Shown here piece by piece: positions 53,771-64,000 of a stretch of 64,000 nucleotides of DNA. Numbering within the stretch: the stretch's first letter is position 1; each line of letters begins with the position of its first letter. The notes under the pieces are model-generated. The model did no database searches and was not told the DNA's origin. It was given only the letters and a program-made list of their open reading frames with translations. The DNA comes from Dermatophagoides farinae (Eukaryota; Arthropoda; Arachnida; Sarcoptiformes; Pyroglyphidae), in contig NC_134679.1 of the NCBI RefSeq assembly GCF_024713945.1, positions 935,001 to 999,000 on the forward strand. Direction: 5' to 3'. The position numbers were made by a program, and so were the translations under genes.

Positions 53771-56446
53771 TCACGTGATTCTCGAGATCGATTTGTTGCT
53801 GTTGTTGTGGATGTTAAAACCACCACCACCACCACCACTACTATATCTATCATCATTTCGTAATGATCTTATTGTATTTGTAGCTGAATTTATATTTTGA
53901 TGATGATGGTGATGACTATGATGACTTGACGATGGAATAGCTGCTGCCGCCGCCATCTGTTGATCAAATAATAAAAGATGATCTAAATCATCTAAATGTC
54001 CATGAAAACTATTGGAATGATGTAGACGATGTTGTTGTTGTTGTTGTTGCGATTGTTGTGATAATGATGAATCATTGGCCACCGTGGTTTGATGATGATG
54101 TTGATGGAAATTATCTGAATTTCTGGATGAATAATAAATAGAATCCGATTCATGTCCGTTAGATGAATGTTCCAATGAATAACCAAAATGACTAATGGAT
54201 GTTAATGATGGTAATGTTGCCAATGGTTCATAAATATCGGTTGTATGTCGTCGAAATGATGATGCAGATGAATGATGTGTATGATGATTATGTTGTTGTT
54301 GATGATGACCAGAAGACGAATGATAAATTGATTCAGCTGTTAATAAATTATTGGCAGTTTGATTACCACGTGTATTTGTTGTTGGCAAACTAAATGCTTG
54401 TGTATCCAATAATTGTGGATGTGATGAATGATGTTGCCGCGTTGATGATAATGATTGTTGTTGATGCGTTGTTGTTGAATGATGAAAATGATGATCATTA
54501 TTGTTGTTGTTGCTATTTGAAATGGCATGATTATGTAATGTTGATGGAAAATAATGTTGATAATGTCGATTTGTTGATCCATTCTTATTCCGTTGTACAG
54601 TTCCATAATGTTGTTGTGAAAATTTATTTGATGAATTTGAATTTGATGATGATGTTGTACCATGATTATTGTTTGATGATGATGATGATGATGGATAATA
54701 ATAAAAATGATGTAGATTTGAATTTGAATTTGATTTTGTTTGTTGTTGATTTGTCATTGTAGTAGTGGTAGTAGTACCATAATTATTAGTAGATGTATCT
54801 TTAGATGAAGAATATAATCTTCTTGTGGTTGTTGGTACATATGGATCAATAGCATTTGTATTATTCTGTGATGGTGTTGCCGATGTTGACGATGATGATG
54901 ATGACAAGGAATTTTTCGTTTGATTTAATCCACTTGTTGTTGTACCCAAAAGACTTGGATGAGTTGCCATTGAAGGTAATGGTGGTGGTTTATTACCCGA
55001 ACTAATTTGTTGTTGAGTATTAGCAGTGGCCGATGCAGTAGCAGAAGCTACAGTTTGATTCGGATATGGTAAATAATCATAAATAGTAGATGGTTGATAA
55101 TAACTAATAGCCGATGGTGTAGGATAATTTCTTATATTTCCTCCCGTATAACCATAATAACTACGACCATAAGTTGGTTCATAAGTTGCGGCTGCTGCTA
55201 CAGCTCCAGTGGTTGTTCCATAATGTGGATGATTATGATGACCAACAATAGCCAAACCACCACCACCACCAGCAGCAGCAGCAGCAGCTGTATCATAATA
55301 AGATTGATGATGTGCTTGAACTTGTGCTTGTGATGGTATCAATGATTGCGATGGATAACCAAACATTGTCGCCGATGGATGATATAATGATGGTATTGAA
55401 TGATGATGATGACTATTTGATTGATTTTGATGATGAAGATGATTATGATGTCCACCGGTTGTTGTATATCCATAAATGGAATTTATGGCAGCATTATTAT
55501 TATGACCAACGGTATTTGTAGCAGAGAATGGATGATGATATAATGCTGAATTTTGTTGTTGTTTACTATTTGTTGACGGAAAATATAAAGCATGTGATGG
55601 TGTTTTTGATGTTTGTCCAATTTTGTTGCTACCACCACCATTATTTGTTCCATAAAGATTTGATTGTTGTTGATGATGGCCATGATGTTTTGATGAATCA
55701 AATTGATGATAATTTGATTTAGCATTTGATGATGATCCAATCGAATCAAGATTATATGTATTTTGTTGCATTGATTGATTATTAGATGATGAACATAATG
55801 ATGAATAAGTTGATTCAACATTTGAATTCACAGCAACAGCAGCTGAACAATAAGATTTACCATGACTATAAGAATCCATTATTAATGATGATGATTGTGA
55901 ATCAATCGAATTACGTTGTTGTATTGCACTATTTAAATTTTTATTATTATGGATTGATGGACTTGCATTGATTTGATTCACATTTGTTTGATTAGATGCT
56001 GTCGATGTTGGTGTCGTTGTTGTTGTTGTTGTTGTTGTTGATGTTAATGTTTTTGTTGATGATAAAGTACTTGAATTTGTTATATTTGATGATGAAACAT
56101 TTCCACCAGAATTGGAACCTGGTGTATTTGTCACAGAATTAGCAGTAGTATTAGAATTTGTAGATTTAATTGATGATTGAAGATGAATAGCTTGAGATGA
56201 TGTTGTCGCTACTGTTGTTGAATTGGTTCCAATGGATGATGATTCTGATGTCGTATTATTATTATTATTATTGCAATTCTGTTGTTGTTGTGCTTGTTGT
56301 TGTTGTTGTTGTTGAGCTTGTTGTGCAGCGGCAGCTTGTTGTTGTTCTTGTTGATGTTTAGCAACTGCTTCTAATGCAACTTCCATAATATCAGTTTTAG
56401 TTAATCGAAGTGAACGTCGTGAATTGAATACTTTATATGCCATTAA
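53771..56446 (-). CDS. kuz: ADAM10 last exon: end of TM and 885-residue cytoplasmic tail
   Basis: It starts after AATTTAG with [19 protein letters not shown], the inner end of the TM helix and a basic stop-transfer patch. The rest is Q-, N-, S-, T- and H-rich low complexity, open for 2.6 kb. A proline motif KPPPLPS (a possible SH3 ligand, as in vertebrate and fly tails) and several Tyr-rich stretches ([11 protein letters not shown]) stand out. The tail is longer than the whole of human ADAM10 (748 aa). The frame ends at a TGA at 53771-53773; repeat translation in other frames is a shadow. Confidence 0.88.
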   Translation of the reverse strand, partial: LMAYKVFNSRRSLRLTKTDIMEVALEAVAKHQQEQQQAAAAQQAQQQQQQQAQQQQNCNNNNNNTTSESSSIGTNSTTVATTSSQAIHLQSSIKSTNSNTTANSVTNTPGSNSGGNVSSSNITNSSTLSSTKTLTSTTTTTTTTTPTSTASNQTNVNQINASPSIHNNKNLNSAIQQRNSIDSQSSSLIMDSYSHGKSYCSAAVAVNSNVESTYSSLCSSSNNQSMQQNTYNLDSIGSSSNAKSNYHQFDSSKHHGHHQQQSNLYGTNNGGGSNKIGQTSKTPSHALYFPSTNSKQQQNSALYHHPFSATNTVGHNNNAAINSIYGYTTTGGHHNHLHHQNQSNSHHHHSIPSLYHPSATMFGYPSQSLIPSQAQVQAHHQSYYDTAAAAAAGGGGGLAIVGHHNHPHYGTTTGAVAAAATYEPTYGRSYYGYTGGNIRNYPTPSAISYYQPSTIYDYLPYPNQTVASATASATANTQQQISSGNKPPPLPSMATHPSLLGTTTSGLNQTKNSLSSSSSSTSATPSQNNTNAIDPYVPTTTRRLYSSSKDTSTNNYGTTTTTTMTNQQQTKSNSNSNLHHFYYYPSSSSSSNNNHGTTSSSNSNSSNKFSQQHYGTVQRNKNGSTNRHYQHYFPSTLHNHAISNSNNNNNDHHFHHSTTTHQQQSLSSTRQHHSSHPQLLDTQAFSLPTTNTRGNQTANNLLTAESIYHSSSGHHQQQHNHHTHHSSASSFRRHTTDIYEPLATLPSLTSISHFGYSLEHSSNGHESDSIYYSSRNSDNFHQHHHQTTVANDSSLSQQSQQQQQQHRLHHSNSFHGHLDDLDHLLLFDQQMAAAAAIPSSSHHSHHHHHQNINSATNTIRSLRNDDRYSSGGGGGGFNIHNNSNKSISRIT

Positions 56447-59400
56447 CTAAATTATGAATTTGAAAGAAAACAACAACAAAAAAACATTACAATCAAAAAA
56501 ATGAACAGAAAAAAATGCATTGGTTACCAATATAAGAACAGTGATTAGAATCAATACGGCAACATAGAACCATTGTTCATTGAACCAACGTTTCAATGAT
56601 GCCATCGATTCATTTGATAATAATAAACGACGTAATGTTGCCAATGGGCTGGATGGATCAACTTCACGACAACGTTGATTTACATCACAATAACCATTAT
56701 AATTATCACATGGTGTACCAGGTTTAGCATAAAGATCCGGTACATCATATGGACTTGTATTCCATTCAAATGAAGATCTTGTTGATGAAAAAGAAAAAAA
56801 TAAATAAAAATCATCAGAATTTTAATTTTTTTTTTCAAAAACAAAAACATACTTGCAAGTACTATCATCAGAAGGCATACGACAACATAATTCACAAAGT
56901 TTTGCTGGTGAATCATTTGGACCTTGTTTACATTGACAAGATTCAAGACCATATGCCATACATATTGAACCAGTACATTCCTATGAGGGGAATCAAAATG
57001 AAAGAAAAAAATGAAAATAAACAGCAAAAAAAAAAAATTCTCATACCCCCATATAGCAAACATATTCTTCATTACAGATTGTTTTATTTGCTTTATTCGT
57101 TGATGGTGGACATTGTGGACCTTGACCAGTGGATATTTCGAAACGGAAAAAAAGAATAAAAAAAAACATCCAGATAGCAGTTAAGGAGAAATAATTTAAA
57201 AAATAAAAAAAAACATCATTTGTTTCATCAAATAATTGTGTATGAAAAGGATATTTGCAATAGCTTGCTGTACGGCAGCCATTATCATCACGGCATTTAT
57301 TGCCAACTTTTAATTTACAATCCTGTGTACAGCATGGACCTTGGACTTGGGCTACAAATCACATTTGGACGTAATCTATGTGAAAATGAATGAAAATCAA
57401 TCAATACTATATTAATTGGGTAATAATAAATAAGATACTCACCGACATGGTGGCTCATCTGGTGGTGAATTGGCACGCATTGGAAAACAACATGGTTCTT
57501 TACAATCTTCTTCCCAGCCACAATCACATTCTTCACCATCTTCAACAACTTCATTACCGCATATTGCATCTTGTGGTTCTAAATGAAAACAAAAAAAAAA
57601 AAAAAAAAAAAAGATGAAAAAATAACAAGAAGAAAAATTAACTGTCAAGTTTGAATTTTCATTTTTTGTTTGTTTGTTTGTTTGTTTGTTTCAAGTTTAA
57701 ACATTAAAAATTTCGACAATGAAAACAAAAAAATTTTCAACTATGAAAACACACACACAAACACCACATAAGACTATGAGTGAGATTGATCATCACATCT
57801 AACCATCATCGTAGAATATAAAAACCAGCATCGTTTGAAATGATGAAAACATTTTTATTTTGATTTTACAATTTTTGTGTCGACATATTTTACAACTTTG
57901 AATTCGTTTTTTTTTGTTTTGTTTCTAGCCATTTGATTCTTCATTTCATCGTATATCATCATCATAAATTCATTCGTATTTCAAGCGAAAACAACAGCAA
58001 AACAAAAAAATGAAAAAAATGATCATCTTGTTTCCAATGGCAGTGGTAATGATTATTCTGGCATCAGTATTGGATACAATTGTTTGTTTACCAATTTCAA
58101 GCCAAAACAATGATTCTAACGGATCTTTCGAAATGTTTTCAAATTCATTGTCAAAACGTATTGAAAATTTATCTGTGAATAAGACAAATACCACAAATGA
58201 ACTACCACTATTACCATTACCGCCAACAAATGTATCCAGATTGGAAATGACTCCCGATGTTAATCATGCATTGACCATCGATCATCAAAATATTGTCATC
58301 AATCTTGGCCAATCATTATCTTCTGGTATCACTAATGCTATTGTTCGTCCATTAACATTTTTCAATAATCTAATCGGATCGGCTGCCGGATCTTTGCCCG
58401 GATTGTTTGCTGCCAATGGTGCTGGTTAGTGCTAGATATTTTTTTTTGTTTTGTTTCATTTCATGTTCATCATCATCATCATGCCAGAAAACAATCAGAA
58501 TCTAGAACGAATCTAGAACAAATGAATTTTTTTAGTTCTCTGTTTTTTTCCAAATGGCTGATCACTTAATCGTTTTTTTTATTTTGTTTTTTCATTTAAT
58601 TTTTTTCTCTTTCTTTCTTTCTCTCTCTTTTGCTTTTTCAGCTCTTGGCACTGCAATCGCTACACCAATTCAACTTGGCACTTTGGCTGCAAATGCTGCC
58701 ATTTCAGGCATTACTGGTACAGTTGTTTCCATTCCAATATCGTTAGCTTCGGGTGGTGCAGCACAATTAGTCGGTCTTATTGGTACTGGACGACAATTAT
58801 GGCATAGTACATTGGGTTCTGATCCAAATAATTCAACATTCTGGCAAAATGGTCAATTATGGCTACAACCATTGGCCGTTGTTACCGGTACTAATTCAAT
58901 ACTAGCTGGTGTTGGTTTGAATGCATTGAGTCAAGGTGTTAAAAATTTAGGCTGGAGTATTGAACGTTTTGGTGTATCGTTAAGTAATACCGGTAAAAAT
59001 GCTAAACAATTTGGTTCAGTATTGATTGGTTGGGCTAATGGTAAACCATTGTATGCATCCATTATTAATGAAACCGATTCATTAAAGAATTTATCATCGA
59101 TTGTCGAAGAAATCAATCAACAACAACAGCCAATGGATACAATCACTAAAATTGATCTTGACAAAATGATTCCATTGAATTTAGAATCAGAATCGATGAT
59201 TGAAACAACGACAACCACGATGGTTGAAATTGAAAATTCACAAACTCAATCGAAAAATGCTGATGATGATGATGATCAAATAGCTGAAAATTCAATTCAT
59301 AATGAAAAAACTACTAACGAAATTACAAATCAACCAAAAAAAATGTGATCATTTAAAACTATCAATTATTTCGACACTTTAATTTATTTTTTCATTTTCA

Positions 59401-62400
59401 TCATTTTAGTCAAACACATACACACACACTTGTTCTCTCTTTTTTTGTTGTTATTGTTTTTGTTTCACCGAATTTGCATAAAAAAAATCGACTAAAATTA
59501 AAATAAAAAATAAAAATAAAAATAAAAAATTGAAAAACAAAATCGACAAGCAATCGTCTTCACATACACTTCGCATTCATATTTGAATCATCGACTTTTT
59601 TTTCAAAATTCAAATTCAATTTTTATAAAACTGTCAAAGTCATCGAAACACACACACACAGTGAGAGAGAGAGAAAAGAGCAGTTTTTTTTTTGCTAATA
59701 CTTGTCACTATCGCGACAATTGTCAAGTAGCAAAAAAATAAAAAAGTAAAGTTTGTTTTTACATTTTGCTGGAAAAAAAGTGAGATATAATCGAATTTCA
59801 TCAAAATAAGATCAAGTTTGTTTTCGAATGAAAAAATTTTTTTTTTATGGAAACATCAAAATTGTCACACAATCAAACTTTATCGTTTTTTTTTCTCTCA
59901 AGAATCTGATGATCTTGAATGACAGTTTTACATACACACATTGTATTCTGTTGTATTCTGATAAATTCATCTTTTTTGTTGTTGTTGTTGTTGAATGGAA
60001 AGAAAAACTTTCCAGAAACCAATTAGAAAAGTGAGAAAAATTCTCATTTTCTATATTTACAAATTGAAATTTGTATTCCATTTTTTTTTTGGTCTGATGA
60101 TGATTCTGTGTGATTCCGTTCTTTTTTCATTTTCTTTTCGTTTCTCATCAATAATAATGATATAATGATAAAAATAAATGTTGTGCACATCATTATCAAA
60201 GTTCTGGTATATACTACTATATCCAAAAACACACACACACACACAGTAGAAACCGGAAAGAGAAACAAAAAAAAAGCTTTTATATGGCAAAAAAAATATA
60301 TTAATTATAGGAAGACAAACAACACTGACCACAGCAAAAATTTTATATTATTTGATGTGGCAAAAAACACTCAAATACACACACACAGTGGGAAAAAATT
60401 AATAGATTCATCTTGTATTTTTTTTTCTATAATTTGTTTGTTTGTTTGCCAATAATGGCGCTGATTATTATGATGAATACAAGAAAACAGCAGCAATTTT
60501 CATCATAGTCATCATTTCGTTTGTTTGTTTGTTTTGGACCAAAAAACATCATCTGTGGCTCTTGTGTTATTGTAACGAGAAAACAATCTGTGGACTGGAT
60601 ACAGTTTTCAATTTTTGAAAACAAAACAAAACAGAAAAAAAAATCATAATCATTCAATGTAAGATTAAAGGTCACAGTGAAAAACTCTCATTGCTTTTTT
60701 TGTCCATCGATAGATGTTGTTTAATAATGATTGGGACTTGAAATAATTGAATATATCTCATTGTTCCGATATCGTCGTCGTCGTCGTCATCGTCGTAGTT
60801 GTTTGTTGTAGATCGGTTTTGGCCTTTTTTTTTGTTTTCCCATTTTTTTTTTTCATCACGACCGGCATACTAAACAATAGAATTTTCTTTTCTTTTCATT
60901 TTTTTTCTCCATTCTTTTTTTTTTGATTATATTGAATTCGTGTTAATGGAATTAAAGTGAATGATGATGATGATTCAGTGTGAAAGAATGAGAAAAAAAG
61001 TATAATTTTCGATTTTCTTAAAGTTTTTTTTCATCCTTTCTCTCTCTCTTTCTCTCACATTTTATTCAATGAAATGGTCTCTTTTTTTTCTTTTCTTGGA
61101 TTTTTTTTAAACAAAGTTTCATATAAATGAAACAACAACGACATCAGCTGCAGCAGCAGCAGCAGTACACAAACAGTCTTTTAACCAGAAAAAAATATAT
61201 ATAGGCCAAAACAAAGGACCGAGGCTCGTTTTTCTTTTTTTTTTTTGGTCTCAAATCTTGATATTTTTGTTGTTCAGACATACATATAGATGGAAGACTA
61301 TAGTGTAATAGTCACAATTGTAAAAGTGTGATTTGACTGGTAATGTATAGGCAAAGAAAAAAAATAAGAATAAAGATGACGACGTTGAAAAAGAATTTCT
61401 TTAACAAAACAAAACAAAAAAAGAAAAAAAATACAGTGAGATAAAGAATCCAAGAAAAAAAAGACAAACAAAAAGAAAACAAATCATATACAGTGATGAA
61501 AACAATGACAAACAAACAAACAAACAAAAAAAAACACACAGACAAACATCAAACCTAGCTATACTATGAATGAAGATGATGAAGCTAGACAAGATTCTAA
61601 GATGAAATATTCCTGATATGAAAAAAAAACCGAAAGAGCAAAAAAAACAAGACAAAAAAAAGAAATCGATTTATGGTTAAATCACAGATCTGTTGGTCGA
61701 TATCAATGTGTGTGTGTGTGTGTGTGTTACATGAAAAAACAACCAAAATATATTTTTGGGTATATTATTATTGGTCTCTATGTTTGTCCAAACTTTATAA
61801 TCAAAATCAATAAAATGATGATTGAAATGAATTGGAATCATTTTCATTGTAGTTTCGAATCGAAAAAAAGACTAAAAGGTTTCATCTAGTCACATCAAAG
61901 TTGTGATGACAAACTTTTCACTCGTTCTCTCGCTCTCTCTCTCTCACTCTTTTCTTCATAATGTCGATATATAATTCTATCTTTTAAATGTCAAAAAAAA
62001 GAAAAGAAAAATCGATTCACTTCGATACTCACCTTGAAAACATCCTTTTAAACTTTTGGCTTTTGTATTCAATACAGCATTGATACTACGTAATGAACAT
62101 GGTGAAAATTTATTATTATTACGTTTATCACCGGATGTAGCTCTTGCAAACATTATATAGTTGCCATTTTCACCGCCCGGTGTACATGCATGATCATCTT
62201 CAGGATCGTGCTAGAGGATATAGACAAAAAATCATTATTAATTCTCAATAAATCAATCAATTAATAATTACCGGTGATCCAAAATTATGACCAATCTCAT
62301 GAGCCAATGTAACATGCGATACAATGGGAGGCACATGTTTGCCATAATTGAGCAATGTAACGATGCCTGTATTTAAGCTCTTTAGGCTACCACGATAATG

Positions 62401-64000
62401 CTGATAGATTTGAATAAATGAAATGTAAAAAAATGAATCAATTAGATGACTAAAAAAAAACTTACCCCATTCTTTTCACAAACACCACCGGCATTCTTAA
62501 GATCACCGGTCCATGCAAGTCCTAATGTTCCACCTTCAAAATCTCTATAGGTAAACATATAGGCAAGACAGAATGCATCGTAATCTTCTTCAGAAAAAAG
62601 CTCGAGAAATTTTTCCACACCATAAGTGGACGGATAACGATATTCAGGATCTTTTAATGCTTCCATTGTATGTACTTTGATACGTTTAATCAAGAATGAA
62701 ATATTATCTGGACGACCATCTTGATCAAAATCTATCGAAATCAAATTCGTAAATTAATATCCTGAATAAGCAAACTTGTCCAAAAAAAAACTTACCAGTA
62801 TTTTTATAGATATTATTAACCTTTTGTACATGACGTGTCATTGATTCAATACATGCTTCTTCGCTGCCCATTTTTTCATAGAACAAATGATCAGCTTGCA
62901 GATATAGCATACAAGTTGTTTTTTTCGGATCCACAACAACATGACGATCATGATGTCGTTGGTCATCGATCCAATGGGTACGTGGATGCACTGCTTTTAT
63001 ACCGTATGGTTCTGATTCCGTATAATGTAATGAATCCATATCACGCCAATAAATACCATGATTACTACTACTACTACTACCACTTTGTTGTTGTTTTTGT
63101 TTCAATTGTCGTGGCTGTTGCTGTTTATCACCACCACCACCATGATGATCATCATCGATTAATCTTGCATTATTATCATTTCTTGCCGTACTGCTACTGG
63201 TAATTGTTTCCAAAATTGTTGTTTCATTATCATCCATTAAACTGGAACTTTTATTATTGCCATTCATTGACATAATATGAGCTTTTGAAATATTTGTAGA
63301 ACGTCGTTGTCTTCGTTTCATTTTTGTTTGATCTACTAAAGCATCATCATGATATGAATCAAAATTATTTTGATGGAATGAAGAAAGCCAATTACCACCA
63401 CCACCAACAGTAGCGGCAGTTGTTGTTGTTTGGAATGGATTAAACAATGGAATATAATGTACAAAGAATGATGCTGTTGTTGATGTTGTTCCATCATTGG
63501 CAAAAAAATTATGATGATCATTATTAGCCATTGTTGCAGCACCGTGTGTTGCATTCAATGGAAAATTTACATCACCACTAATATAGATAACTGAATGAAA
63601 ATCATAATTTCCAAAATTGAGATCAAAATAACGTTCAGCTGGTTCAATATAGAATTCTTCATATTTCGTTTGCAAATGACCATCCAATAGACCATTTTTA
63701 GTAATAATACCAACAAACGTTGAATCTTCATCATCTTCAAGATGACCAATTATAACATTTGTCATATCATATGTGAATCGTTCATTACCAGTGGATTCAA
63801 TCATAATATCTTGAGCAAAAACAGTTTCACTTTGACTTTTTAATAATAATTGAAATTTACGATTATGAGCCGAAAATTCTAAACGAATATGATGATGATG
63901 ATCATCATCATCATCATTGAAATCTTCATCATCAATATCCTTAATGTAATGATGATCGAATGAAGAAGAATGTTCTTGTTGATCATTATCATCGACAATA
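53771..64000 (-). CDS. kuz: ADAM10 / kuzbanian metalloprotease (5' end outside window)
   Basis: Membrane-anchored disintegrin-metalloprotease; the family is the alpha-secretase that sheds Notch and other ectodomains. Ten exons are seen: >64000-62796, 62731-62466, 62400-62272, 62210-62033, 57578-57443, 57375-57255, 57128-57047, 56980-56853, 56777-56528 and 56446-53771. In order they encode the prodomain, metalloprotease with [11 protein letters not shown], disintegrin ([15 protein letters not shown]), cysteine-rich region, one TM helix and a very long cytoplasmic tail. All splice phases agree except that exon 57255-57375 is one base too long (frameshift). The intron 57129-57254 appears to be AT-AC type. 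The remaining introns are GT-AG of 61-81 nt, apart from one of 4454 nt holding a nested gene. Alignment with human ADAM10 is clear throughout. Confidence 0.93.
56528..57128 (-). CDS. kuz: ADAM10 exons: cysteine-rich region and transmembrane helix
   Basis: Three exons (57047-57128, 56853-56980, 56528-56777) give [37 protein letters not shown] with KLCELCC, then [20 protein letters not shown] and a stalk [14 protein letters not shown]. The TM segment ([15 protein letters not shown]) continues into the next exon as LMAYKVF. Human ADAM10 has the same order ([50 protein letters not shown]). Confidence 0.95.
57129..57254 (-). other. Probable U12-type AT-AC intron in ADAM10
   Basis: The intron reads ATATCCTTTT at its 5' end, an exact match to the U12 donor ATATCCTT, and ends TCCAC. 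It contains TCCTTAAC (57180-57187), the U12 branch-site consensus. Splicing joins TGCAA to TGGTCAAG, giving [17 protein letters not shown], whose cysteine spacing (5 and 6 residues) and CNG equal human CAREGICNGFTALCPAS. No GT-AG choice does this. Oddities: the branch site is about 52 nt from the acceptor (usually 10-20), and AAATATCC is repeated at both ends. The length (126 nt) is a multiple of three with no in-frame stop. Confidence 0.65.
57255..57578 (-). CDS. kuz: ADAM10 exons: disintegrin domain, with a frameshift
   Basis: Exon 57443-57578 encodes [20 protein letters not shown] and [16 protein letters not shown]. Exon 57255-57375 continues [11 protein letters not shown]. It must then shift by one base to read [20 protein letters not shown] and GCRTASYC, as in human [22 protein letters not shown]. 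The extra base is a C in AGTCCAAGG (a G at 57343 or 57344 on the plus strand). Without correction the frame ends at a TAA 13 codons later. Confidence 0.88.
57817..57824 (+). promoter_or_regulatory. TATA box of the nested gene
   Basis: TATAAAAA lies about 190 bp upstream of the nested gene ATG, so transcription would start near 57848. A 7-codon upstream frame (MMKTFLF) begins close by at 57838. Confidence 0.45.
58010..59348 (+). CDS. Secreted Gly/Ala-rich protein of unknown function, nested in ADAM10
   Basis: Two exons, 58010-58424 and 58642-59348, joined by a GT-AG intron (G|GTTAGT ... TTTTTCAG, phase 1), give 373 residues. The N-terminus is a good signal peptide ([20 protein letters not shown], cleavage near VCLP). 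A sequon-rich region follows (NDSNGS, NLS, NKTNTTN), then a hydrophobic Gly/Ala/Ile central part (about 100-230, with [20 protein letters not shown] and [18 protein letters not shown]) with no charged residues in long stretches, and an acidic Ser/Thr/Asn/Asp-rich C-terminus ending KKM. I do not recognise the family; the central part could insert in membranes or form a cuticle- or silk-like hydrophobic core. It lies wholly inside an ADAM10 intron on the other strand. Confidence 0.75.
62033..62731 (-). CDS. kuz: ADAM10 exons: catalytic metalloprotease domain
   Basis: Three exons (62466-62731, 62272-62400, 62033-62210) carry [39 protein letters not shown], the zinc site [11 protein letters not shown] and the Met-turn segment [15 protein letters not shown]. 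The third zinc histidine is the first codon of the last of these exons, so the motif is split by an intron (61 nt, phase 0). All catalytic residues expected for ADAM10 are present. Confidence 0.95.
62796..64000 (-). CDS. kuz: ADAM10 exon: prodomain and start of catalytic domain (partial)
   Basis: Open to the window edge. [18 protein letters not shown] and [14 protein letters not shown] match the ADAM10 prodomain (RLDFHAHGRHFNLRMK, GTFYVEPAERY), followed by HSVIY. The conserved cysteine-switch GGCAD reads HGAAT here (63535-63546), with no cysteine. A basic cluster KRRQRRS (about 63298-63318) is a likely furin site. It is separated by about 125 low-complexity residues from the catalytic start [20 protein letters not shown] (human KNTCQLYIQTDHLFFKYYG). 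Confidence 0.92.

Follow-up and report, generated by a model that had tools for sequence, protein, structure and literature searches.

The window, by which we mean the whole stretch of 64,000 nucleotides that was analysed, carries the ADAM10/kuzbanian gene of Dermatophagoides farinae on its minus strand, and the candidate intron described here lies on the same strand (Table 1). The first-pass annotation had called the DNA probably that of a mite, which is what the host is. Pfam Reprolysin models matched three ORFs of the gene, two of them above the cut-off (34.0 and 31.4 bits) and one below (23.2 bits). The identification as ADAM10/kuzbanian is based on metalloprotease parts followed by disintegrin parts in order, some of the Pfam matches being below cut-off. 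Joining the two exons around the excised candidate intron gave a piece for which the best six of the twelve matched solved sequences were ADAM10. A DNA search of the genome (62,435,336 bases in 22 contigs) revealed a single copy of this stretch.

Table 1. Positions of the ADAM10 exons, introns and splice elements in the window.
Feature	Position	Strand	Basis
Reprolysin (metalloprotease) exons, ADAM10	61977..62753	-	Pfam Reprolysin models, three ORFs
Disintegrin domain start, ADAM10	57443-57690	-	Pfam, 20.8 bits, below cut-off
Neighbouring GT-AG introns, ADAM10	57376-57442 and 56981-57046	-	Boundaries by eye
Upstream ADAM10 exon, disintegrin part	57255..57375	-	Boundaries read from sequence; one-base frame slip inside
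Candidate U12-type AT-AC intron, 126 nt	57129..57254	-	Sequence; top excision against solved ADAM10
Donor ATATCCTTTTCA	57243..57254	-	12 nt equal to prospero donor; +5 to +12 complementary to mite U11 TGAAAAGG
Branch site TCCTTAAC	57180..57187	-	Exact match to U12-type consensus
Predicted hairpin, 5' arm UGGAUGUUUU	57163..57172	-	Folding
Predicted hairpin, 3' arm GAAAUAUCCA	57130..57139	-	Folding; contains second AAATATCC and acceptor A
Acceptor AC	57129..57130	-	First AC or AG past the branch motif
Downstream ADAM10 exon, GQGPQCP...VCYMG	57047..57128	-	Boundaries read from sequence

The upstream exon displays a one-base frame change (window ~57335-57375, minus strand) before QGPCC, about 85-90 nt 5' of the donor. 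An incorrect base in the assembly probably accounts for this slip; at the Merqury quality value of 36.11 given for the D. farinae assembly (PMC11074847), single-base errors are to be expected. Past the ADAM10 membrane segment, an open frame of 891 aa with many Q, N, S and H residues extends over 53771-56446 of the minus strand; it gave no Pfam match at E 0.1 and may form a very long cytoplasmic tail of ADAM10. On the opposite (plus) strand, a gene-like pair of ORFs arranged as two exons is found between the ADAM10 exons (57968-59348). The pair had no Pfam match above cut-off, and the start of its first ORF resembles a signal peptide.

Splice signals and the junction set by the protein

Read on the minus strand from 57254 to 57129, the candidate intron has the form ATATCCTTTT...TCCTTAAC...AAATATCCAC and terminates with the letters TCCAC, as the first-pass annotation had read it. 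Its donor shows an exact ATATCCTT at +1 to +8, located at the junction that is fixed by the protein. Donor and branch site both correspond to the U12-type consensus as printed in PMC2831892, which bears out the consensus matches claimed before. The same combination of ATATCCTT donor, TCCTTAAC branch site and AC end is known from the AT-AC twintron of fly prospero and the U12 intron of human PROX1 (PMC2831892). The flanking AAATATCC repeat, also pointed out earlier, is present at both ends of the intron. Removal of the intron yields CRTASYCNGQGPQCP, with a gap-free junction in the alignment to ADAM10, and this product matched ADAM10 among the solved sequences at E 5.8e-7; the first-pass annotation had claimed an ADAM10-like cysteine spacing and CNG motif for the spliced product.

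To compare possible junctions, excisions 30 to 199 nt long that kept the frame and gave no stop (n=5,527, from 120 start positions around the site) were scored against one solved ADAM10 row, irrespective of splice signals. The AT-AC excision alone took first place with a score of 127; behind it came four excisions offset by 1 to 3 nt, each with 121. The Pfam Disintegrin model gave 29.0 bits for the AT-AC product; this value and those of the other products given below are all under the cut-off of 35.1 because the pieces are partial.

The rival explanation named in the first-pass annotation was an in-frame coding insertion, with the 126 nt kept in the mRNA and 42 residues added to the disintegrin domain. 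The length is indeed divisible by three and the stretch has no in-frame stop, which is slightly unusual (394 of 5000 shuffles were open in that phase). However, the insertion would disrupt the CNG motif and the cysteine spacing and bring a hydrophobic, T-rich stretch into the domain. With no removal the score against the solved ADAM10 row was only 82, the Disintegrin match fell to 17.8 bits and all solved ADAM10 matches at E 0.1 were lost, and we consider a coding insertion improbable. A U2-type GT-AG intron (GTACAG...TCAAG, 153 nt) enclosing the 126 nt would also stay in frame and has GT-AG ends, but it would remove TASYCNGQG including a conserved cysteine, a loss that had been foreseen for the best GT-AG alternative. 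This excision scored 99 (rank 748 of 5,527), and its product reached 16.6 bits with the Disintegrin model and matched no solved sequence at E 0.1, which leaves very little room for a U2-type intron.

A damaged exon, be it in a decaying gene or through an assembly error, with the 126 nt as a random insertion, would be in line with the frame slip in the same exon and with the single-base errors expected at the assembly's quality value. Yet the single slip is better explained by a base error than by decay, the stretch has one genomic copy, and the tested exons retain their metalloprotease and disintegrin similarity. Moreover, a random insertion would not place both U12 signals exactly at the junction, and we regard such damage as highly improbable. 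A chance match of the motifs was rejected because they fall at the protein-fixed junction, although the motif pair taken alone is at about chance level genome-wide. The target-site duplication of a mobile insertion, with AAATATCC at both ends, was rejected as well, since the junction AA/TGG required for the conserved product leaves no full AAATATCC copy; the single genomic copy also speaks against it. The AT-AC signals of the 126-nt stretch are confirmed as real, and it is their coincidence with the protein junction that exceeds chance.

Minor snRNAs and a candidate intron in prospero

A genome-wide search with the strict pattern RTATCCTTN{30,60}TCCTTRAC revealed three places, compared with two for the reversed control, and the N{61,91} version of the pattern revealed none, compared with one for the reversed control; by itself, the motif pair is no more frequent in this genome than expected by chance. 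The three places are the ADAM10 intron, a subtelomeric place on contig C1 (L015) and C9:85497 (L017). The C1 place lies near the contig end, adjoins telomere-like CCTAACCTAACC and has no recognisable coding context; it was taken as a chance match. L017 is prospero: the sequence that follows the candidate intron has a match to fly Prospero at E 2.9e-28. Here the candidate AT-AC intron comprises 78 nt (L017 1501-1578) with 11 nt from the branch site to the end, and its first 12 bases are identical to those of the ADAM10 candidate. No GT with a later AG occurs within it, and the GT-AG intron that is nested in the fly version is missing. The mite intron presumably occupies the same position as in fly, given that reviews locate the fly difference to the region of the homeodomain.

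Genes or candidates for three of the four minor snRNAs are present in the genome. Rfam searches detected U6atac (60.7 bits, cut-off 33) and U11 (cut-off 39; genome search 45.7 bits, locus scan 51.8 bits), together with a U4atac candidate below its cut-off (45.7 bits, cut-off 53). The U4atac candidate and U6atac share a perfect complement of 13 nt, whereas 300 simple shuffles of U6atac gave 10 nt at the longest and 6.8 on average. Close to where its Rfam match begins, the mite U11 contains TGAAAAGG, an 8-nt complement to donor positions +5 to +12; as the Rfam alignment starts the U11 RNA at the G, pairing could involve 7 or 8 bases. Two further matches were set aside: a U4atac match (L005) that is U4 (113.7 bits) and a second U6atac match (L003) below cut-off at 19.3 bits. 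U4, the U4atac candidate, U6atac and U11 all have CNGTAAY 57 to 64 bases 5' of the start of their Rfam match. The chance of this in the 8-position slot is ~0.0024 for each, from its frequency in the window and with the motif chosen after looking, and CNGTAAY is probably a promoter element common to these snRNA genes.

No U12 snRNA was detected at E 1 in the Rfam search of the genome, in which 42 of 5722 first-look candidates were scored; with so few scored, we count the missing U12 as a gap and not as an absence. Pattern searches built on U12 sequence gave 174 places at up to 3 mismatches compared with 199 for the reversed pattern, and 0 versus 0, 10 versus 22 and 0 versus 1 for the other patterns. 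Rfam scans of 23 loci, which represent 22 separate places because two coincide, revealed no U12 match; some of the places listed from among the 174 were included. The first-pass annotation had proposed a look for U11, U12, U4atac and U6atac and had regarded the lack of all minor-spliceosome components as fatal to its reading. Such a complete lack does not occur: U6atac and U11 are present, a U4atac candidate lies below its cut-off, and U12 was not detected in the searches above. CENATAC (PF14968), the sole minor-spliceosome-specific protein that was sought, was not found in the genome, its only match (L028, 20.4 bits) being EBP2 (204.5 bits).

Branch-to-acceptor distance and the predicted hairpin

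The long branch-to-acceptor distance noted in the first-pass annotation was measured as 52 nt in linear sequence, counted to the first AC or AG. For U12-type introns the reported optimum is 11-13 nt, and the mite ADAM10 intron clearly differs in this; a short distance is described as an important recognition factor but not as a defining feature (PMC3584512). Folding of the stretch between branch site and acceptor predicted a hairpin of 10 bp whose last base is the acceptor A. Its energy of -7.3 kcal/mol (z -2.49) was equalled or undercut by 5 of 200 shuffles. Pair probabilities were 0.80-0.96 when it was folded with 150 nt of context on each side. Compared with 3000 shuffles, the energy was reached by 42, the shortening by 226 and both together by 5. 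If the helix is counted as two nt and added to the unpaired bases, the effective distance becomes about 10 nt. The fold of the whole 126-nt intron is not unusually stable (z -1.36, 20 of 200 shuffles as low). The 5' arm of the hairpin could alternatively pair with the donor copy of AAATATCC, though the probabilities of these pairs are just 0.0001 to 0.0002.

On this folding model we give even odds that the hairpin matters for reaching the acceptor. Stems of at least 6 bp downstream of the branch site, which shorten the distance to the acceptor, have been described for 21 of 88 yeast introns (PMC12350175), and the predicted 10-bp stem of the ADAM10 intron would act likewise. The yeast stems, however, belong to U2-type introns, whereas the mite intron is U12-type and its stem is predicted only. 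Among the titles listed in our literature search, none concerned a U12-type intron with a stem of this kind. If real, the hairpin shows a way for a U12-type intron around the short branch-to-acceptor limit.

The ADAM10 intron as a probable minor-spliceosome substrate

The evidence supports the U12-type AT-AC reading of the first-pass annotation. We put the probability at about 0.88 that the minor spliceosome removes 57129-57254 (minus strand) as a U12-type AT-AC intron of D. farinae ADAM10/kuzbanian. The signals, the protein junction, genes or candidates for three minor snRNAs and the predicted fold are what the analysis revealed, and splicing is what we infer. In this process U11 would pair with the donor (CCTTTTCA against TGAAAAGG), and U12, whose presence in D. 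farinae is to be presumed, would be expected to pair with the branch site. U6atac, delivered by U4atac, would then take the place of U11, and the 10-bp hairpin ending in the acceptor would probably loop out 43 nt, which would bring the effective branch-to-acceptor distance to ~10 nt.

Introns of this kind are already known. ADAM10 does not appear from row 3 onwards in the table of 19 U12-type introns of D. melanogaster (PMC2831892), and the literature searched contained no report that pairs ADAM10 with a U12-type intron or Dermatophagoides with U12-type introns; among the matches listed for kuzbanian and minor introns, none named kuzbanian. As far as this search goes, the occurrence in D. farinae and in ADAM10 is new, though a listing in a supplement or an intron database is possible. 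Acari are described as generally very poor in minor introns, which Tropilaelaps mercedesae and Halotydeus destructor appear to have lost completely (PMC10639083); Dermatophagoides is not in the main text of this pan-eukaryotic survey. D. farinae likewise has few strict candidates, yet minor snRNA genes are still present. A mite that keeps these genes for perhaps very few introns, such as those in ADAM10 and prospero, makes it testable which introns sustain a minor spliceosome.

Both candidate introns, the 126 nt of ADAM10 and the 78 nt of prospero, have lengths divisible by three and would leave the frame open on retention, which in prospero would add 26 residues. In ADAM10, retention would spoil the disintegrin match, so that it would be expected to serve as waste or as a switch, which we give as a lead only. 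A more far-reaching scenario, which we consider rather unlikely, is that the mite lineage lost nearly all minor introns and that the remaining AT-AC introns in two regulators of development, ADAM10/kuzbanian and prospero, are frame-keeping, stop-free switches between a spliced and a retained form. The ADAM10 acceptor would then be reached only via the hairpin, and opening of the stem could adjust which form is made; the ADAM10 intron itself may be a lineage-specific gain.
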